Below the pieces are notes generated by a model. The model ran no database searches. It saw only the letters and a list, made by a program, of their open reading frames with translations, and was not told the origin of the DNA. Source: Leeuwenhoekiella sp. (GTDB lineage: Bacteria; Bacteroidota; Bacteroidia; Flavobacteriales; Flavobacteriaceae). From it: 64,000 bases of DNA. The stretch lies in NCBI GenBank assembly GCA_002708845.1, contig PAPI01000020.1, positions 160,717-224,716 of the forward strand. The letters are read 5' to 3'. Of this stretch, positions 40,946 to 64,000 are shown piece after piece (positions within the stretch are counted from its first letter, which is position 1; every line of letters starts with the position of its first letter). Position numbers and translations under genes: made by a program.

Positions 40946-40981
40946 GCTATTGTTATTGCTATTGCTATTGCTATTGCTATT
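40946..40981. repeat. Six tandem hexamers (GCTATT)
   Basis: Six consecutive units; the second is GTTATT, the others GCTATT. Part of a composite intergenic element that resembles 45951-46050. Confidence 0.85.
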
Positions 40982-48309: not shown

Positions 48310-48323
48310 CAGGCTCAATTTTA

Positions 48324-48380
48324 GTTTGCAGTTTGCAGTTTGCAGTTTGCAGTTTGCAGTTTGCAGTTTGCAGTTTGCAG
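48324..48380. repeat. Eight tandem GTTTGCA heptamers
   Basis: Eight uninterrupted perfect copies of a 7-bp unit, then a looser series of CTTTGAACTT-like words to 48412. It lies between the GIN-domain gene and the mature tmRNA 5' end. Seven-bp units shift reading frame; no gene is encoded here. Confidence 0.95.
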
Positions 48381-48422
48381 TTTTGAACTTTAAGCTTTGA
48401 ACTTTGAACTTCTAATTCACTC

Positions 48423-48821
48423 GGGGTCGATTTGGTTTTGACAGCGGGTCTAATTGAATAGTAAGCACGTCGAGCGCTGGGACACAGCTCGTAAATCTCA
48501 GGTTTCACACTTTTTTAAACGGCGAGTCTAACTACGCCTTGGCTGCGTAATCCGAATCATAGTAGGATATGCTTAATGCCGTACGAGGTACGGCACCAAG
48601 ATACCCCTGAAAAGCCCTGGTTTGCGGCGTTTCGTAAAGGGGTACCGAAAAAGTAGACCTAGTTTTGGCAGGATCCTGATGCCACTACGAAATTTAATTG
48701 GGAATAAGGTAGCAGTTGGTAGTTGCCGACCGGCTGTTGCACGAAAATCAATTGGCAAATAAACGTGTAGAAAGCTATTGAGTTGCCCGTTTGGACGGCG
48801 GTTCGAACCCGCCCGACTCCA
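48423..48821 (+). ncRNA. ssrA: Transfer-messenger RNA (tmRNA)
   Basis: The 5' GGGGTCG pairs with CGACTCC (48814-48820) to form the acceptor stem; A48821 is the discriminator and CCA is not encoded. The 3' half has a T-arm with GGTTCGAACCC. The tag frame at 48521-48550 reads GESNYALAA plus stop, close to the common Bacteroidota GENNYALAA. About 399 nt. With SmpB it rescues stalled ribosomes and marks the unfinished protein for degradation. A terminator follows at 48857-48890. The heptamer array lies in front. Confidence 0.95.
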
Positions 48822-48856
48822 CGATCACCCATAACTGCGTTATGGATTAAAAAAAG

Positions 48857-57672: not shown

Positions 57673-58320
57673 TTAGGTCAAGGTAACTTCCCCTAAATAC
57701 ACACTGGTTGCAGCCTTCTCTTCAGAAGCCGTAACAAAAGTGGCATACAGGCTCACGTCCATCCCCGCCATATAAGCCGGGAAAGTTAAGACCGCAGCAG
57801 TGGCATCGCGTAATACCCCGTCTTCAAAGGTCACCGCCTGCCCCATCGTTTCCACATAGCCTACGGCAATCAGCTTGTCGGTAGCTTTTGCAGCACCCTG
57901 CCCGCTGTTGTCTGCCCAGGTGAGGTTAACCACGTGGTTTGCCGCAACGGCAGCCGCCGGATTGGCCAGCCCCTGCAGGTCCCCTTTACTGATGAGCACC
58001 TTGGCCGTGTTGATGGTAAAGCCTCCGCTGCCATCGGGTTCTACCACCTCGGTGATGTAGTAGGAAGTGGCCAGGTTCATAGGCGATTTATCATCCTGTT
58101 CCTGCCCAAAAAACCGACTTACTACAGACCGAATGGGATTTAAAAATGCAACCGCCACCCCAAAACGCAAACGCTGTTCTTTTTGCAGTTCGGTGGGAAT
58201 GCGTTTCCGCCGGGATGTGGGTAAGCTGCGCATGACATTCTTGCCCCGCCAGTTTACTCCGATTACCGTACCTACTTTTCCGTTGAATCCTCCCAGGATT
58301 CCTTTGTCAAATGTTGCCAT
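57673..58320 (-). CDS. DUF6266 family protein
   Basis: 215 residues, Bacteroidota-specific as far as I recall. The N-terminus MATFDKGILGGFNGKVGTVI then GVNWRGKNVMRSLPTSRR is the family hallmark. The rest is Ala/Gly/Val-rich and beta-strand-like, with TWADNSGQGAAKATDKLIAV and AYMAGMDVSLYATFV. No signal peptide, no catalytic motif. Function unknown; the hydrophilic, beta-rich composition is compatible with a structural or phage-derived protein, but no phage neighbours are present. GC content is visibly higher than in neighbours, suggesting transfer. It has its own promoter (58360-58390), terminator and an upstream tandem array. Confidence 0.88.
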   Translation of the reverse strand: MATFDKGILGGFNGKVGTVIGVNWRGKNVMRSLPTSRRKRIPTELQKEQRLRFGVAVAFLNPIRSVVSRFFGQEQDDKSPMNLATSYYITEVVEPDGSGGFTINTAKVLISKGDLQGLANPAAAVAANHVVNLTWADNSGQGAAKATDKLIAVGYVETMGQAVTFEDGVLRDATAAVLTFPAYMAGMDVSLYATFVTASEEKAATSVYLGEVTLT

Positions 58321-58359: not shown

Positions 58360-58390
58360 CAAAGTAATTCGGGTTTTCCGCACTTCCAAA
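58360..58390 (-). promoter_or_regulatory. Promoter of the DUF6266 gene (TTTG-N19-TTACTTTG)
   Basis: Minus-strand TTTG (58387-58390), a 19-bp spacer, then TTACTTTG (58360-58367): near the Bacteroidota -33/-7 consensus. It lies 40 bp before the ATG. The decamer array begins 5 bp beyond the -33 box. An 11-bp word CGGGTTTTCCG (58370-58380) in the spacer recurs at 58593-58603. Confidence 0.6.
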
Positions 58391-58395
58391 AAACT

Positions 58396-58525
58396 GCACG
58401 GTCTCGCATAGTATCGCATACTATTGCATAGTCTTGCAGGCGTTTGCAGGCATTTGTATACGATTGCAGGCAATTGCACGGTATAGCATACCATTGCAGG
58501 CTTTCGCATACGCTCGCAGGGTGCA
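58396..58525. repeat. Thirteen degenerate 10-bp units in exact register
   Basis: Units start at 58396 and every 10 bp to 58516. Plus-strand consensus GCA-(TA/GG/CG)-S-NN-T-Y. Column 1 is G and column 3 is A in 13 of 13; column 2 is C in 12; column 9 is T in 12. Columns 4-5 take only TA, GG or CG; column 6 is G or C; columns 7-8 vary freely. No spacers and no indels. Confidence 0.95.
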
Positions 58526-58545
58526 GGCACAAAAACAGCCCCTTT

Positions 58546-58589
58546 GTTCGGGTATCGTTCGGGGATTGTTCGAGAATCGTTCGGGGATG
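58546..58589. repeat. Four degenerate 11-bp units (GTTCGGGGATY)
   Basis: Four contiguous units starting at 58546, 58557, 58568 and 58579, all beginning GTTCG; variation is confined to columns 6-8 and 11. It lies 20 bp after the decamer array. Confidence 0.9.
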
Positions 58590-58693
58590 CTGCGGGTTTT
58601 CCGAACAAATCGCGATAAAAAGCTCTTGCGGGAGGGTATTTTTTGCGAAGGAAATACGGGTTAAGGCAGGGTCAAACTAAGCCTAAAGCAAGT

Positions 58694-58759
58694 CAACTCC
58701 CAGGCAACTCCTACTCAAAGCCTACTCAAAGCCTAGGATAGAGTATGAAGAGAGTATGA
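58694..58759. repeat. Six 11-bp units of two types
   Basis: Units at 58694, 58705, 58716 and 58727 follow CAA-(CT/AG)-CC-(C/T)-A-(GG/CT). Units at 58738 and 58749 follow A(T/G)AGAGTATGA. The two-letter alternatives combine in a mosaic. The remaining 58760-58910 holds no recognised feature. Confidence 0.85.
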
Positions 58760-58910
58760 AAACGGGTTTTAAGAGGGTGGAATTTAAGATTTCATTAACA
58801 GTTACGCCGCTTTATGAGTTTAAGGAGTATATAGAAATGCTTTGTAGTAATAAAAGTTATAAATTAAGATTTGCTTTTAAACTGAAAAGGACAGCTATTT
58901 ACTTAATCAA

Positions 58911-59846
58911 TTATCGCTTACTTATATTTCTATATTTTGCAATAATCTGATCAATGCCTGTTTTCCATTGTTGAATTTTTTCACTAAGCTCCAAATCCTC
59001 TTCCCACATTTTATGATTCCAATCAGCATATAAATAAATGGGTTCTTTAATACTGTTCCAGTAATACTTAAAACCACTAAACTCATACTCTTCATAGGTT
59101 TGCTTCCACTCCCCAAAAAGCTCATTTAAGGTACTATCAGGCTCATTGATCGTTAATATCCAACGGCGATCGTCCCAACTTACTTCAATACGGTCATAAT
59201 AGTTCAAACAAGTAGCATTGTAGACATCTCCATAAATCTTCTGAGGTGAAAATTTCTTATTTAAAAAATACCTGCTAAACAGGTCGCACAATGCCTGACA
59301 TTGCTCGTAGGCTGACATTAATATGGTTACGTCAAATTTAGATTCCCTGTAATACCTGCTAATATGTTCTACAGAAGCACTTACAACAATCGCGGCCATT
59401 TCCCTTTTGGCGTCATTAAAAAAGTCGCTACTATCAACCTCAATTTCCTGATCGCAAAAAGTGTAAACACCTAAGCTATCTCCTAATTCCTGATGAACAA
59501 ATAAGCTACCCATTTCCCTATTATTAAGTTCTGAGTATTCATACAGATTCATCGAACCAATGATCAACACATCTCCATTAAAATAGCACTTACTGTGTAT
59601 ATGTGGATGGTGCAGTAAACTGATATTTCCCAAAGACAGTAATTTGCTTTTCTCCCTATCATTCAATTTGTTTTCCCGGTAAATCAATATGATCTGCACC
59701 CTGTTTTTATTTGCAACCTGTAATGCTTTAAAAATGGTTTTAGAAATTTGAACATAAGGAACAATTAAAACGAGTTCATTTTCACTGCTTTTTATAAGTT
59801 CCGGAATAAATTGATTGAGGAGTTGCGTATTAAGAAATAAAGGCAA
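58911..59846 (-). CDS. Phospholipase D-like (HKD) domain protein
   Basis: 311 residues. Residues 1-130 form a PLD-like domain: VLIVPYVQISKTIFKALQVA and the HxK...D site H84-S-K86...D92 followed by GSMN (97-100). There is one extra residue between K and D compared with the classic HxKx4D. Only one HKD is seen, so a dimer would be needed. The C-terminal half (about 190-311) is unrecognised. Such single-HKD proteins are usually nucleases or nickases in restriction loci. Last gene of the minus-strand group that starts with hsdR. Confidence 0.82.
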   Translation of the reverse strand: MPLFLNTQLLNQFIPELIKSSENELVLIVPYVQISKTIFKALQVANKNRVQIILIYRENKLNDREKSKLLSLGNISLLHHPHIHSKCYFNGDVLIIGSMNLYEYSELNNREMGSLFVHQELGDSLGVYTFCDQEIEVDSSDFFNDAKREMAAIVVSASVEHISRYYRESKFDVTILMSAYEQCQALCDLFSRYFLNKKFSPQKIYGDVYNATCLNYYDRIEVSWDDRRWILTINEPDSTLNELFGEWKQTYEEYEFSGFKYYWNSIKEPIYLYADWNHKMWEEDLELSEKIQQWKTGIDQIIAKYRNISKR

Positions 59847-59873
59847 GGTATTGTAATTTAATAAATAGATAAT

Positions 59874-60791
59874 TTAGACGTCTTTCATCGCATCCCAAAA
59901 ATCAGTATCCAGCTTTTTGAGTTCGATGGTTTGTACGGTTTGCATCCCCAGACCGTAATCGTAAATATAATCGGCAAGTTGATTACCGTCTATTAAAATG
60001 ACTGTAGCGTGTACAGTATTGGCATAATCAATAGCCGATTTTGCAAAAGAAGAAGTGGTTATAAATACACCTTTGGCATTGGCATTACCTGATAATGCGC
60101 CTACAAACTTCTGAATATCTGGTCTTGAAATTGTATTTTTTTCTTCATAGCATTTAGCCTGAATATAAATACGACCTAACCCCAACACATCTTCGCGGAT
60201 TATGCCATCAATACCCCCGTCATTAGACTTGCGAGTTACCAGCCCGGAATCTTTAATCTCTCCTCCATACCCCATAGCCTGCAAAAGCTTAACCACCAAA
60301 GCTTCAAACTCATAAGGTGATTTAGATCGGATGGTATTTAAAATCTCTGCTTTACGGGTATCTTTAATATTTGCAAAAGAATTGTATAGTTCTTCTGCAG
60401 GGGTCAAATCATTGCTCTGGGTGGGCCGTGTTACAACAGGTTTAGAAGCGTCTTTTTGTTTAACAGGTTCACGCTCGCTTAACTTTTGGTCAATATAATT
60501 ATGTATTTCATCTGGTTTCTCAAGTAGAGCTTCACCGCTACTATTAATTTCATAATAGCCGCGTTTAGGTTTGCTAACCAGATCTGCCATATTGAGATAA
60601 CTCAACGCCCAGGTTACCCGGTCATAAAAAATATGCCCGTTACCCGAAGGATACATTTCTGTAATTTCCTCCTCAGTAAGATTAAAATAAGTTCCTAATA
60701 GTTCTACAAAATCTTTAAGCTTTAAAGTCCCGTGTTGCTTGAGTAATTCTAAAGCTGGGATACGGATTTCGTCGTGTTTAGGTATGGGCAT
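59874..60791 (-). CDS. mrr: Mrr-type restriction endonuclease
   Basis: 305 residues. N-terminal Mrr_N winged helix at about 1-95 (EIRIPALELLKQHGTLKLKD, ALSYLNMADLVSKPKRGYYE). Linker at about 105-145. Mrr_cat at about 155-270: FEALVVKLLQAMGYGGEIKD, the active-site D195 in NDGGIDGII and Q211-A-K213 in IYIQAKCYE (PD-(D/E)xK fold). Mrr cuts DNA with foreign methylation. Encoded between the P-loop protein and the PLD-like protein, 27 bp from the latter. Confidence 0.93.
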   Translation of the reverse strand: MPIPKHDEIRIPALELLKQHGTLKLKDFVELLGTYFNLTEEEITEMYPSGNGHIFYDRVTWALSYLNMADLVSKPKRGYYEINSSGEALLEKPDEIHNYIDQKLSEREPVKQKDASKPVVTRPTQSNDLTPAEELYNSFANIKDTRKAEILNTIRSKSPYEFEALVVKLLQAMGYGGEIKDSGLVTRKSNDGGIDGIIREDVLGLGRIYIQAKCYEEKNTISRPDIQKFVGALSGNANAKGVFITTSSFAKSAIDYANTVHATVILIDGNQLADYIYDYGLGMQTVQTIELKKLDTDFWDAMKDV

Positions 60792-60844
60792 TTTTTTTAA
60801 AATTTATGCGGGTTTTAATACTATTATTCTGCAAAATAATTAAA

Positions 60845-61270
60845 TCAAATTCCTCTTAACCACGTCTGTAACTCTGTCAAAACGCGATTACTTTGCTGGG
60901 TTGACCAAGGAGCTACAACTCTTATCCATTGCGATAAATAAACCAATTGGCTATTATTATACGTATTTAAAAATTCAGTCACCGCAGTTAATGACGATAA
61001 TCTGGTTCTACAACAACAAACAATTACATCACAATCTTGATTATGAATTTCTAATAATCTCTTTTGAACATAGTGATATTCATCTCCCTGAGTTATGATT
61101 CCAATTCTAAAACCATTAATTTCTACAACTCCAAAGCGGTCAGGACCAGTGCCATCAGTTTGAATATTATTTGTCTGATTAGGATAATTTAAAAGCCAAT
61201 TAATTAAGTTGTTTAAAATTGTAGTTTTTCCACTATCGCTTACTCCTTGTAGGATAAGAATTTTTTTCAT
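60845..61270 (-). CDS. Small P-loop NTPase in the restriction locus
   Basis: 141 residues. Walker A GVSDSGKTT at about 9-17; a hydrophobic strand CDVIVCCCRTR near 85 may be Walker B. No helicase or AAA second-region motifs. It lies 31 bp after hsdR and 54 bp before mrr, so it is part of the island. A kinase-like or GTPase-like partner of a nuclease is possible, but nothing specific is recognised. Confidence 0.65.
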   Translation of the reverse strand: MKKILILQGVSDSGKTTILNNLINWLLNYPNQTNNIQTDGTGPDRFGVVEINGFRIGIITQGDEYHYVQKRLLEIHNQDCDVIVCCCRTRLSSLTAVTEFLNTYNNSQLVYLSQWIRVVAPWSTQQSNRVLTELQTWLRGI

Positions 61271-61300
61271 TTATAAATTATTTAAGTATTACATTCTAAA

Positions 61301-64000
61301 TTAAGCACTCCACTCCCCAAACTGTCCCTCAGCCTGTTCCATAATGTCCTGAAGGATTTCGTTGAGTTTGGTGATGCTTATCTTACCTCTAAGTTCTTTT
61401 TTAACGGCCAGGCGTATGCTGGCTTTGGCATTCTCTTTTTTGGTCCAGTCTAATTGCAGGTTATTCTTTACTGCTTTAACCACACCGTGTACAATGTCCT
61501 GAATTGGGCCTTCCTCTTTGATAATTTCCTTTTTAGCTGCCAGAATATCGTAGAAGGCCAATTCTTCTTCGCTAAGCCCCAATTCTGCTATACGGGTATC
61601 TTCTTTTTGGAGTTCTTTGGCGCGTTCTACCAGTTCGGCGATGGTGGCGTAACTGTCTAAAGCATTGTTGTGGTAGCGGTCAATAACCTTTTCCAGTTCT
61701 TCTTTAAGACTGGTATACTTTTTTATGTTTTTATGCAGTCGCAGTTTGATCTCATCTTTAAGAATGTTTTTGATGAGTTCTATTTTTAAAGCATTGCCAT
61801 CTTTTTCTTGCTTAGCACCTAATAGGAAGTTATCATCCAAAATGGCAATATCCGGTCGCTCAATACCGGCCATCGCAAACACATCTACGATATCTTCACT
61901 GTCTATACTTTGACTTATTAACTCCTTTACCTTTTCTTTTTGCTCCCCGCGCGTGGTGGTTACACTTTTTGCGTTACGCACCGCTTTGCTTACGTGCTGC
62001 ACAAACAAAACATCTACAACGGTATATTGTATGGCAGACTGACTTTTTACAATAGACAACAAGCCGCTCATCGTCTTTTCAGCTTTCATAAATTCCATAG
62101 AAGCTTCATCGTCTTTGATGATGTGGTTTAAAGCTGCTTTTACCAAAAGTACTTTATCGGCCTCCCGGAGTCCTTTCCAATTGTGGTAATCTACGTGTTC
62201 CGGTAAATAGGCGATACAGCTTTGCAACTGATCATAAAACAACTCTAAGGCCTGCTCCATATCTACGGTAGGTTTGCCTTTACCCCCACTTCCGGTATAT
62301 TTAGAGGTGGCTGTTTTAAGGTTATCCCCAATGCCTATGTAATCTACAATCACCCCGTTTTGCTTATCCTTAAATACCCGATTGGTACGAGTAATGGCTT
62401 GCATCAGGTTATGCCCACGCATAATTTTGTCTACATACATCGTATGAACACAAGGGGCATCAAAACCGGTAAGCCACATATCTCTTACGATTACAATTCG
62501 CAACGGATCTTCCGGATTCTTAAAACGTTTTTTGAGTGCTTCGGTACTGTGCTTGGTACGGAAATGTTCATTCCACGCCACGGGATCTTTGCTGATGTTA
62601 CCGGTCATCACCACGGCGATTTCTGGGCAATCTTCCAGTTCCTTTAGCGCATCGTACATTTTCACACAGTTCCGTCTGCTCATACATACGATCATCGCTT
62701 TCCCGTCCAGAGTTGCAATACGTTTGGTATAATGACTGAAAATATCTTGGGAAATCTTAGCCACCCGATCTGCACTCCCGGCTGCATCTTCTATAGCAGC
62801 CCATTTTAAATTGGGATTGTCTTCGTCTGCTTCGGTAATCGCATCTACCTCTGCGTCTATATCTTCATTCCACAAATGCAGCTTAGCCAGACGGGGTTCG
62901 TAATAGATTTTTACGGTAGCATTATCTTCTTCGGCCTGGCGGATGTCGTAAATATGAATCAGGTCTCCAAACACCTCCTGGGTATCGGCATCTTTGCTGT
63001 CTACAGGCGTACCGGTAAAGCCAATAAACGACGCATTGGGCAATGCCCGGCGCATATTACTGGCAAAGCCATCCAAAAGTCCGTATTGCGTACGGTGGGC
63101 TTCATCAGCCATCACAATGATATTTTCACGGGTACTCAGTACCGGATGCTCCAGTTCTTTTAACGTGTCCTCGGTACCAGTTTTAAGGCGGAACTTCTCA
63201 ATGGTGGTAAAAATTACACCTCCTGCTCCTGCACTCAGTAGCTTGCGTAAATCGTCTGTAGTATCTGCGTGTTGCACATCACCCACCAGATCTTTAGCCA
63301 ATACAAAATTTTCATACAGCTGAAAGTCTAGATCGCTACGGTCTACCTGCACCACTATCGTAGGGTTCTTAAACTGCTTCATGCTACGCAGTATGCCAGT
63401 ATAGATGGCCATAAATATACTCTTACCAGAGCCCTGCGTATGCCAAACTACACCTATGCGGCCATTGCCCACAGGGCGAACAGCCTTTTGGGCTGCCGCA
63501 ACGGCATAGGTAACCCCAAAATACTGATGATATTTTGCACCCTTTTTTATCAAGGTGCCGTTATGGTCTTCATGAAAGATGAAGTTCTTTATGTAATTGA
63601 GCAGACGGTCTTTAGGGAATAATCCAAATAACATCGTATGCACCTGCAAATCTTCATCATTAAAGGTTTGCTTACCATCAATACTCTTCCAGGCTGCAAA
63701 CCACTCCTGCCCGCTGCTATACATACCGTGCTGCGCCTCATTACCATCACTTATTACCGTGAGCGCGTTATATTCAAAGAGTAAGGGAATATCCTTTTTA
63801 TAATGTTGTATCTGGTTATGCGCTTCTTTGATATTAGTATGCTCATCATACCAATTCTTAAGTTCAAAGACTACTAGTGGCAAGCCATTGATGTAGATAA
63901 TGATATCTGGCCTGCGTTTGTTTTTACCCGTGATACTAAACTGATTCACCGCCCAGAAGCTGTTATTCTCTGGATTTTCAAAATCTATGGGGTAGATATG
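61301..64000 (-). CDS. hsdR: Type I restriction enzyme R subunit (HsdR), N-terminus beyond the right edge
   Basis: The frame stays open through 64000 (HIYPIDFENPENNSFWAVN precedes), so the gene starts outside the window; a GTG at 63949 is not a real start. 899 residues are visible. PD-(D/E)xK nuclease: PDIIIYINGLPLVVFELKN. SF2 helicase: Walker A WHTQGSGKS, Walker B MADEAHRTQYG, GFTGTPVDS, MSRRNCVKMY and MQAITRTNRV. The C-terminal helical domain has an HsdM-binding character. HsdM and HsdS should lie upstream, outside the window. It translocates and cuts unmodified DNA. Confidence 0.95.
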   Translation of the reverse strand, partial: HIYPIDFENPENNSFWAVNQFSITGKNKRRPDIIIYINGLPLVVFELKNWYDEHTNIKEAHNQIQHYKKDIPLLFEYNALTVISDGNEAQHGMYSSGQEWFAAWKSIDGKQTFNDEDLQVHTMLFGLFPKDRLLNYIKNFIFHEDHNGTLIKKGAKYHQYFGVTYAVAAAQKAVRPVGNGRIGVVWHTQGSGKSIFMAIYTGILRSMKQFKNPTIVVQVDRSDLDFQLYENFVLAKDLVGDVQHADTTDDLRKLLSAGAGGVIFTTIEKFRLKTGTEDTLKELEHPVLSTRENIIVMADEAHRTQYGLLDGFASNMRRALPNASFIGFTGTPVDSKDADTQEVFGDLIHIYDIRQAEEDNATVKIYYEPRLAKLHLWNEDIDAEVDAITEADEDNPNLKWAAIEDAAGSADRVAKISQDIFSHYTKRIATLDGKAMIVCMSRRNCVKMYDALKELEDCPEIAVVMTGNISKDPVAWNEHFRTKHSTEALKKRFKNPEDPLRIVIVRDMWLTGFDAPCVHTMYVDKIMRGHNLMQAITRTNRVFKDKQNGVIVDYIGIGDNLKTATSKYTGSGGKGKPTVDMEQALELFYDQLQSCIAYLPEHVDYHNWKGLREADKVLLVKAALNHIIKDDEASMEFMKAEKTMSGLLSIVKSQSAIQYTVVDVLFVQHVSKAVRNAKSVTTTRGEQKEKVKELISQSIDSEDIVDVFAMAGIERPDIAILDDNFLLGAKQEKDGNALKIELIKNILKDEIKLRLHKNIKKYTSLKEELEKVIDRYHNNALDSYATIAELVERAKELQKEDTRIAELGLSEEELAFYDILAAKKEIIKEEGPIQDIVHGVVKAVKNNLQLDWTKKENAKASIRLAVKKELRGKISITKLNEILQDIMEQAEGQFGEWSA

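Follow-up and report, generated by a model that had tools for sequence, protein, structure and literature searches.

Helically phased repeat arrays upstream of DUF6266 genes in Leeuwenhoekiella and other Bacteroidota

Upstream of a gene of the DUF6266 family (PF19781), the 64,000-nucleotide stretch of DNA analysed here (the window, from contig C20 of the 4.35 Mb draft genome of a Leeuwenhoekiella sp.) carries an array of 13 degenerate decamers. Arrays of 10- or 11-bp units recur upstream of DUF6266 genes in other genomes of Bacteroidota, with words particular to each locus, with decamer rows in a shared register to promoter-like boxes, and with an array type that is inherited together with the gene clade. 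These results suggest that the array constitutes an undescribed kind of gene-specific control element. What we infer is that a protein binds the array, along with its identity and whether it activates or represses. The open-licence library searched yielded no mention of DUF6266 or PF19781, and no description of such repeat arrays by title or abstract.

The composite element in the window

The decamers constitute one half of a composite element; the other half (58546-58609) combines an 11-bp array with a short arm in the opposite orientation. Read along the gene strand, the order is the opposed arm TTTGTTCGG, four CCCGAAC 11-mers, the linker, 13 decamers, TTTG, 20 nt, TACTTTGG and the start codon. 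The features are as follows:

57673-58320, minus strand: DUF6266 gene (PF19781), 215 aa
58359-58366, minus strand: TACTTTGG, -7-like box (TAnnTTGG), 20 nt after TTTG, named by eye
58387-58390, minus strand: TTTG, -33-like box, 4 nt past the GCA core of the last unit
58396-58525, minus strand: array of 13 degenerate decamers, plus-strand GCA-[TA/GG/CG]-S-NN-T-Y, gene-strand core TGC
58526-58545, minus strand: linker, gene strand AAAGGGGCTGTTTTTGTGCC, with counterparts in relatives, by eye, such as AAAACCCCTGTTTTTTTGG
58546-58589, minus strand: four 11-bp units, GTTCGGG/GTTCGAG plus NATN (gene strand CCCGAAC)
58601-58609, plus strand: opposed arm CCGAACAAA, which pairs with TTTGTTCGG in the 11-bp array to give 9-bp arms around a 49-nt loop
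58652-58760, minus strand: second 11-bp set, two copies of CCTACTCAAAG plus AGAGTATGAAG, the window's best period-11 signal

An earlier description of this DNA, made from its letters alone (the sequence-only reading), had taken the decamers as the unit; these are real, but they belong to a composite of which they make up only one half and which also comprises an inverted 11-bp array; the four units of that array (GTTCGGGNATN at 58546-58589) had not been counted with them. The 11-bp set around 58652-58760 is perhaps a separate element.

The thirteen units at 58396-58525 keep an exact 10-bp register with no indel, as had been claimed, and the phasing of nearly one helical turn is likewise supported. 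Column 1 is G and column 3 is A in 13/13 units, whereas column 2 is C in 12/13 (unit 7 reads GTA) and column 9 is T in 12/13 (unit 13 has C), so that the invariance once ascribed to GCA and T9 holds for G1 and A3 but was slightly too strong for C2 and T9. Columns 4-5 read TA in six units, GG in five and CG in two, column 6 is restricted to G or C, columns 7-8 vary freely, and column 10 accepts C, T or A; these counts match the restricted and free columns originally described, including the notion of 'word-like' units under column constraints. A slipped microsatellite, already rejected in the sequence-only reading, is excluded by the 13 differing units, the zero indels and the column rules.

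The information content of the array is 1.09 bits per column. The top 130-bp period-10 frame of the whole window coincides with it (1.14, start 58393), while the runner-up frame more than 200 bp off scores 0.574 and the maximum among 2000 mononucleotide shuffles of the array is 0.39; the 10-bp autocorrelation over 100 bp (0.64) is also the highest in the window.

Other observations were made around the element. A defence-like cluster (58911-63949) adjoins the array and encodes a PLD-like protein, an Mrr endonuclease, a small GTPase-like protein and a type I restriction subunit; the PLD-like neighbour was seen again in genome G130 and in Leeuwenhoekiella nanhaiensis. The DNA between the array and the PLD gene is unrelated in two Leeuwenhoekiella-like genomes (locus L042, 5860-6773, versus window 58483-58905), with a 256-aa open frame in L042 and the second 11-bp array in the window. 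Elsewhere in the window, a heptamer array (48323-48411; AGTTTGC x8.7, then TTTGAAC units) lies just before the tmRNA gene (48423-48824), and further 6-7-bp arrays are found at 40946, 41055 and 46003. Heptamer repeats of TAACTGA are known from a few Bacteroidetes, according to PMC4679880.

Association with DUF6266 genes and probable relatives

PF19781 is present in 49/249 genomes of a family sample and in 18/296 of a class sample. A high-scoring, near-uniform group of DUF6266 (E about 1e-80 or lower), here labelled E90, was considered apart. An array of 10- or 11-bp units within 400 bp upstream was found at 27/45 non-E90 DUF6266 loci, compared with 3/113 control regions (Fisher p 2e-15), a p-value that overstates the strength of the contrast because the cut-off (autocorrelation of 0.66 at 10 or 11 bp) was set after the first scoring of loci and because the loci are related; the size of the contrast is independent of it. 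The 45 loci take in the window itself and several per genome, from related genes, and they are a part of all DUF6266 matches: L217, L219, L233, L234, L236 and L240 were dropped as fragments or poor rows, L182-L191 were scored separately, and L348-L351 were added later. Control regions were those upstream of mechanically called open frames of at least 150 aa in L182-L219, some of which are perhaps not genes. The three control matches correspond to an unmasked DUF6266 locus (L217), a solitary array of genome G153 (L218) and the region upstream of a gene of a second protein family in L186.

Downstream of DUF6266, 0/45 loci reach the cut-off at period 10 or 11; upstream, periods of 5-9 and 12-19 bp reach it in 0-2/45 loci, and 20 bp (2 x 10) in 12/45. 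The remaining 18/45 non-E90 loci fall below it, as do 11/13 E90 loci, the scored E90 set comprising 10/30 loci from the family sample and 3/6 from the class sample; the two E90 loci that pass (L160 and L177) do so at 11 bp. By eye, several E90 loci display two 11-mers around TACCAAGTCCG. E90 genes, such as those at L158, L160, L175 and L177, are closely similar across many genera and have perhaps spread laterally; by eye, a conserved open frame precedes them. As a separate observation, 7-bp periodic repeats occur downstream of DUF6266 in L212, L213, L214 and L248 (autocorrelation 0.67-0.91).

The suggested link to DUF6266 and the search of Bacteroidota genomes for similar arrays were thus both borne out, the former more broadly than supposed, with two qualifications: solitary copies without DUF6266 exist, including one in the genome from which the window comes, and the proposed consensus GCA-(TA/GG/CG)-S was seen in this lineage only, other DUF6266 loci using other words. 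A composite-pattern search matched 13/249 genomes, mostly by chance as judged by eye, the matches in the window's own genome and in G153 looking real. A contig pattern scan returned at least 119 stretches, and most of those looked at were ordinary tandem repeats of other phyla; the scan also yielded the Leeuwenhoekiella loci L042 and L025 and the Bacteroides clarus locus L086.

The control match in L186 led to the second protein family, which displays the N-terminal pattern GxIGxxxFxxxxGxxxxR (by eye). Its upstream regions pass the cut-off in 5/28 cases (p 0.008 versus the 113 controls), other periods doing so in 0-2/28. The family's member in the window's own genome, on contig C27 (L379, C27:96866-97495), aligns at residues 7-61 to the DUF6266 profile (E 3.7e-7, 30 proteins searched), received no name from Pfam, and carries within the 140 bp upstream five 11-bp units around TGCTACCACAC with an autocorrelation of 0.91. 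Matches of the other members to the profile are weak (E 5e-4 for the next best and at least 0.006 for the rest); judged by sequence, the second family as a whole is probably akin to DUF6266.

A looser parallel is found in the HU-HIG genes of Bacteroidota (PF18291). As in DUF6266, some of these genes have locus-specific repeats upstream: HU-HIG genes of Bacteroides clarus (L086, 5800-6731), where decamers occur, and of genome G279 (L332-L337) have upstream decamer or about 22-bp arrays, with locus-specific words and, in some, opposed arms. Unlike in DUF6266, a period of two turns is the more frequent one, and a sequence in common with DUF6266 was not established. Among 14 HU-HIG genes from one genome and two from others, 22-bp repeats were seen in 5/16 regions, a count at a period without control. 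A role for HU-HIG was reportedly proposed by Burroughs et al. in 2017. A separate dispersed repeat of about 205 bp, unrelated to the array, occurs on many contigs of G245 (L270, query 1030-1236) in dozens of copies, some in tandem, its core matching both strands.

Words, promoter register, inheritance and solitary copies

Across DUF6266 loci the spacing is constant and the words are locus-specific, with examples such as CTAACTATATG (L230), CGCCTWTCGTT (L238), CTTTGACTCTT (L241), CCATAGAT (L217), GTGTCAATRT decamers (L194) and GGTCAAACGC (L196). Genome G521 holds six DUF6266 paralogues with six 11-mer word sets (0.68-0.86, in a looser 22-bp window without control), two of which have only three units; three of the four G521 loci scored at the 0.66 cut-off pass. 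Genomes with two or three decamer arrays, solitary ones included, use one common dictionary. Orthologous arrays differ in number and words, the window having 13 units versus 8 in L. nanhaiensis. At a likely syntenic place the words have changed from TGC in the window to GTCA in G130, or the reverse (PLD neighbours 42% identical), and G155 and G134 have a DEAD-box neighbour in common (78% identical), yet their words differ; in these two cases compared, the loci look stable.

A TTTG-like box (TTTG, or ATTG/CTTG) lies exactly 4 nt from the last decamer core in 10/17 DUF6266 decamer loci (raw count) and at 4-5 nt in 13/17; exactly 4 nt is also found in 7/15 other loci, that is, 14 solitary elements and one DUF6266 pseudogene. 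L200, L264 and L284, whose unit chain was broken by the script, were left out of this count, and by eye the distance is 4 nt there too. In the window, the claimed position of the array beside a promoter was supported, TTTG lying 5 bp from the G at 58396 from which the sequence-only reading had counted (4 nt past the core). The boxes at decamer loci resemble flavobacterial motifs, namely sigma-A TAnnTTTG and SM5 TAnnTTGY, as given in PMC9723704. From the 4-nt register shared across loci, decamer rows tend to stop at one set distance from the promoter-like boxes, and so on one set face of the helix.

In a quick tree of 62 rows with long branches and 22 open forks, the decamer trait (14/62 rows) needs four changes. 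Eleven of the 14 decamer rows sit in one clade of 12 rows, in which L202 lacks decamers, and the remaining three (L204, L205 and L237) branch near that clade. Genomes G115, G040, G069 and G202 each hold one decamer-clade DUF6266 with decamers and one sister-clade DUF6266 without them; in none of the four, therefore, does array type go with the genome, and in each it goes with the gene.

Copies of the element were also found away from DUF6266. The pattern CYCGAACRANNCYCGAAC gave 34 matches in 15/249 genomes, compared with 7 reverse-read control matches (counted from the table). One match, in G192, falls inside an open frame and is probably due to chance, and another, in G038 (L262), carries a DUF6266 pseudogene. 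By our count, 14 places are solitary, some of them without decamers; a search for DUF6266 in 13 of the 14 (the third G024 place was left out) gave only weak matches (E of 0.005 or above). G539, G540 and G541 hold five more loci without DUF6266 and two with it. The array of G110 occurs in a genome with no DUF6266 match, and the sole DUF6266 of G153 belongs to the E90 clade and lies on another contig from the array; in both, the binder may be encoded elsewhere. Contig C22 of the window's own genome carries a second copy, composed of hairpin, linker and seven decamers with words identical to the window's, and shows no DUF6266 remnant beyond a 55-residue match (E 0.085) some 3 kb away. L. aestuarii shares this second array locus, also with seven units; between the two, 7/28 free and 3/42 core positions have changed, two of the core changes being one TA-to-CG switch, which is no more than suggestive of constraint on the core columns (p 0.08, one array).

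Candidate mechanism, alternatives and meaning

With moderate confidence, we propose that the array is a promoter-anchored, helically phased operator for a candidate cognate protein, with words specific to the gene lineage. Of the possibilities named in the sequence-only reading, the protein-binding platform is still the best candidate. A small DNA-binding protein would find one site in every decamer and every 11-mer, and the one-turn spacing would place all copies on one face of the helix; the protein could then build an unbroken row, or a solenoid, up to the -33 box and thereby control how the gene downstream is transcribed. Words would be lineage-specific because protein and array evolve together, and solitary copies may represent further targets or relics.

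The likeliest binder would be the gene's own product, DUF6266 or a relative, giving autoregulation; this is a guess. It is supported by the paralogue-specific words and co-inheritance, and weakened by the solitary arrays, which are the strongest result against DUF6266 binding its own array, and by the lack of a recognised DNA-binding family. Indeed, searches of Pfam, NCBIfam and PHROGs gave no DNA-binding domain in DUF6266, no ribbon-helix-helix family was matched, and no solved relative was found by sequence (best E 0.59). An AlphaFold2 model from the window protein and that of L. nanhaiensis (two rows, 74% identical) had a pLDDT of 27.6 and was discarded.

Contiguous, degenerate, phased units that end at a promoter resemble cooperative operator or centromere arrays, an analogy that extends to two plasmid systems. 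PMC9426499 and PMC5016525 describe ParR/parC repeats (11-bp direct repeats in R1, 10-bp in pB171) located at the promoter with family-specific words, wrapped as a solenoid, the promoter being repressed. Like these, the window has contiguous 10-12-bp direct repeats at a promoter; unlike them, its array is chromosomal, its arms are inverted, words vary between paralogues and binding is a proposal, and no actin-like ParM was present among the six window proteins scanned (DUF6266, PLD, Mrr, GTPase-like, type I restriction subunit and molybdopterin oxidase). In omega (ParB)/parS of pSM19035, 7-10 contiguous short repeats overlap the promoters of several genes and are read cooperatively, as PMC9499535 reports. 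The solitary arrays here may be compared with these, but the parS units are 7-bp WATCACW, the protein is RHH, and the system is on a plasmid with a ParA partner, while the units here are 10 and 11 bp with other words. By the tests made, the array falls outside both ParMRC and omega/parS.

A wider version of the proposal is tentative, and we hold it with clearly less confidence than the operator itself: a superfamily of mostly stand-alone Bacteroidota genes (DUF6266 and its probable relatives with a similar N-terminal domain) may have, paralogue by paralogue, their own phased-word dictionary, often arranged as 11-bp arms facing each other and, in one clade, joined by a promoter-locked 10-bp row. 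Such dictionaries would be cognate protein-DNA identity tags of a new class, insulating paralogues and turning over while the grammar is kept. Its probability was lowered slightly because the profile matches of the second family are weak beyond the C27 member.

The opposed arms are the part least explained by the operator model, and they bear on an alternative in which a folded strand is recognised: 11-mer arms would pair into a long hairpin (ssDNA or RNA), words would be free if both arms change together, and decamers would be a side feature. In its favour, inverted repeats scoring at least 12 are enriched upstream of DUF6266 (19/45 regions versus 62/529 control windows, which include coding DNA; p 1e-6), with 7/45 versus 24/529 at a score of at least 14. 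Arms of 17-33 bp around 24-30-nt loops occur in L208, L210, L212, L215 and L216, and by eye L348 forms a near-perfect hairpin of 11-mers. In the sister clade (e.g. L206, L208, L210, L212 and L216), arms of 17-33 bp enclose 24-31 nt and, by eye, a CCC..TTTAC-GGG motif recurs. The opposed arms of the sister clade keep the reading alive. Nevertheless, 26/45 regions score below 12, and opposed arms made of decamers were seen nowhere. Upstream regions had no better RNAfold z-scores than downstream ones (mean best z -2.65 versus -3.26), and Rfam 15, searched at the gathering score over 9 sources, gave nothing except the tmRNA at 48423-48824 of the window. In decamer loci read by eye, moreover, the array lies upstream of promoter-like boxes and should be absent from the gene's mRNA. 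Altogether, we consider a folded strand unlikely.

Somewhat less likely again is a dispersed non-autonomous element, similar to MITEs or REPINs and composed of hairpin and decamers, with DUF6266 as partner or host and solitary copies that would have transposed. It would account for the two to four copies per genome by pattern (G245, G024, G155, G097, G134 and the window's own; four in G539) and for the dictionary common to a genome's copies where decamers are present. Two G245 copies aligned to a third start at the same base (query 1434), the solitary L270 copy immediately precedes an open frame that by eye is oxidoreductase-like, the homology between L025 and L012 stops beside the element, and that between L042 and the window stops within or beside it. 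However, copies are few, no transposase was found among the six window proteins, and the window DUF6266 protein as query gave no relative in viral contigs, phages or plasmids. The G155/G134 and window/G130 loci, moreover, look static, and no empty site was found, flanks not being conserved across the element in the one genus examined. REPIN/RAYT systems are alike in comprising small dispersed hairpin elements that accompany one gene family (two copies in the window's own genome, several elsewhere) and differ in that here there is no Y1 (RAYT) transposase, the linked gene is DUF6266 and copies are few. The array element is not known to carry the GTAG-type REP of REPIN/RAYT.

Improbable in our judgement is an operator for a general factor, such as a nucleoid protein or the C-terminal domain of RNA polymerase alpha, which would read phase or curvature and not words. 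The helical spacing, the register to a -33-like box and the solitary arrays agree with it; the strong column constraints of the window array, the different words at paralogous loci of one genome, and the tracking of gene clade by array type in four genomes argue against it. Neutral satellite repeats persisting in long intergenic regions are very improbable: the near-identical units of L194 and L196 indicate that duplication does occur, but the recurrent promoter register, the column rules and the DUF6266 link across the class sample oppose this.

The array connects an uncharacterised family, DUF6266, with a recognisable cis-element and so gives a handle on its possible role. Locus-specific words at fixed spacing constitute natural libraries for the co-change of a protein and its repeated sites, and the arrays allow the study of how a register is kept while words turn over. 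Should each paralogue read its own words alone, these elements would represent a chromosomal counterpart of plasmid centromere specificity.
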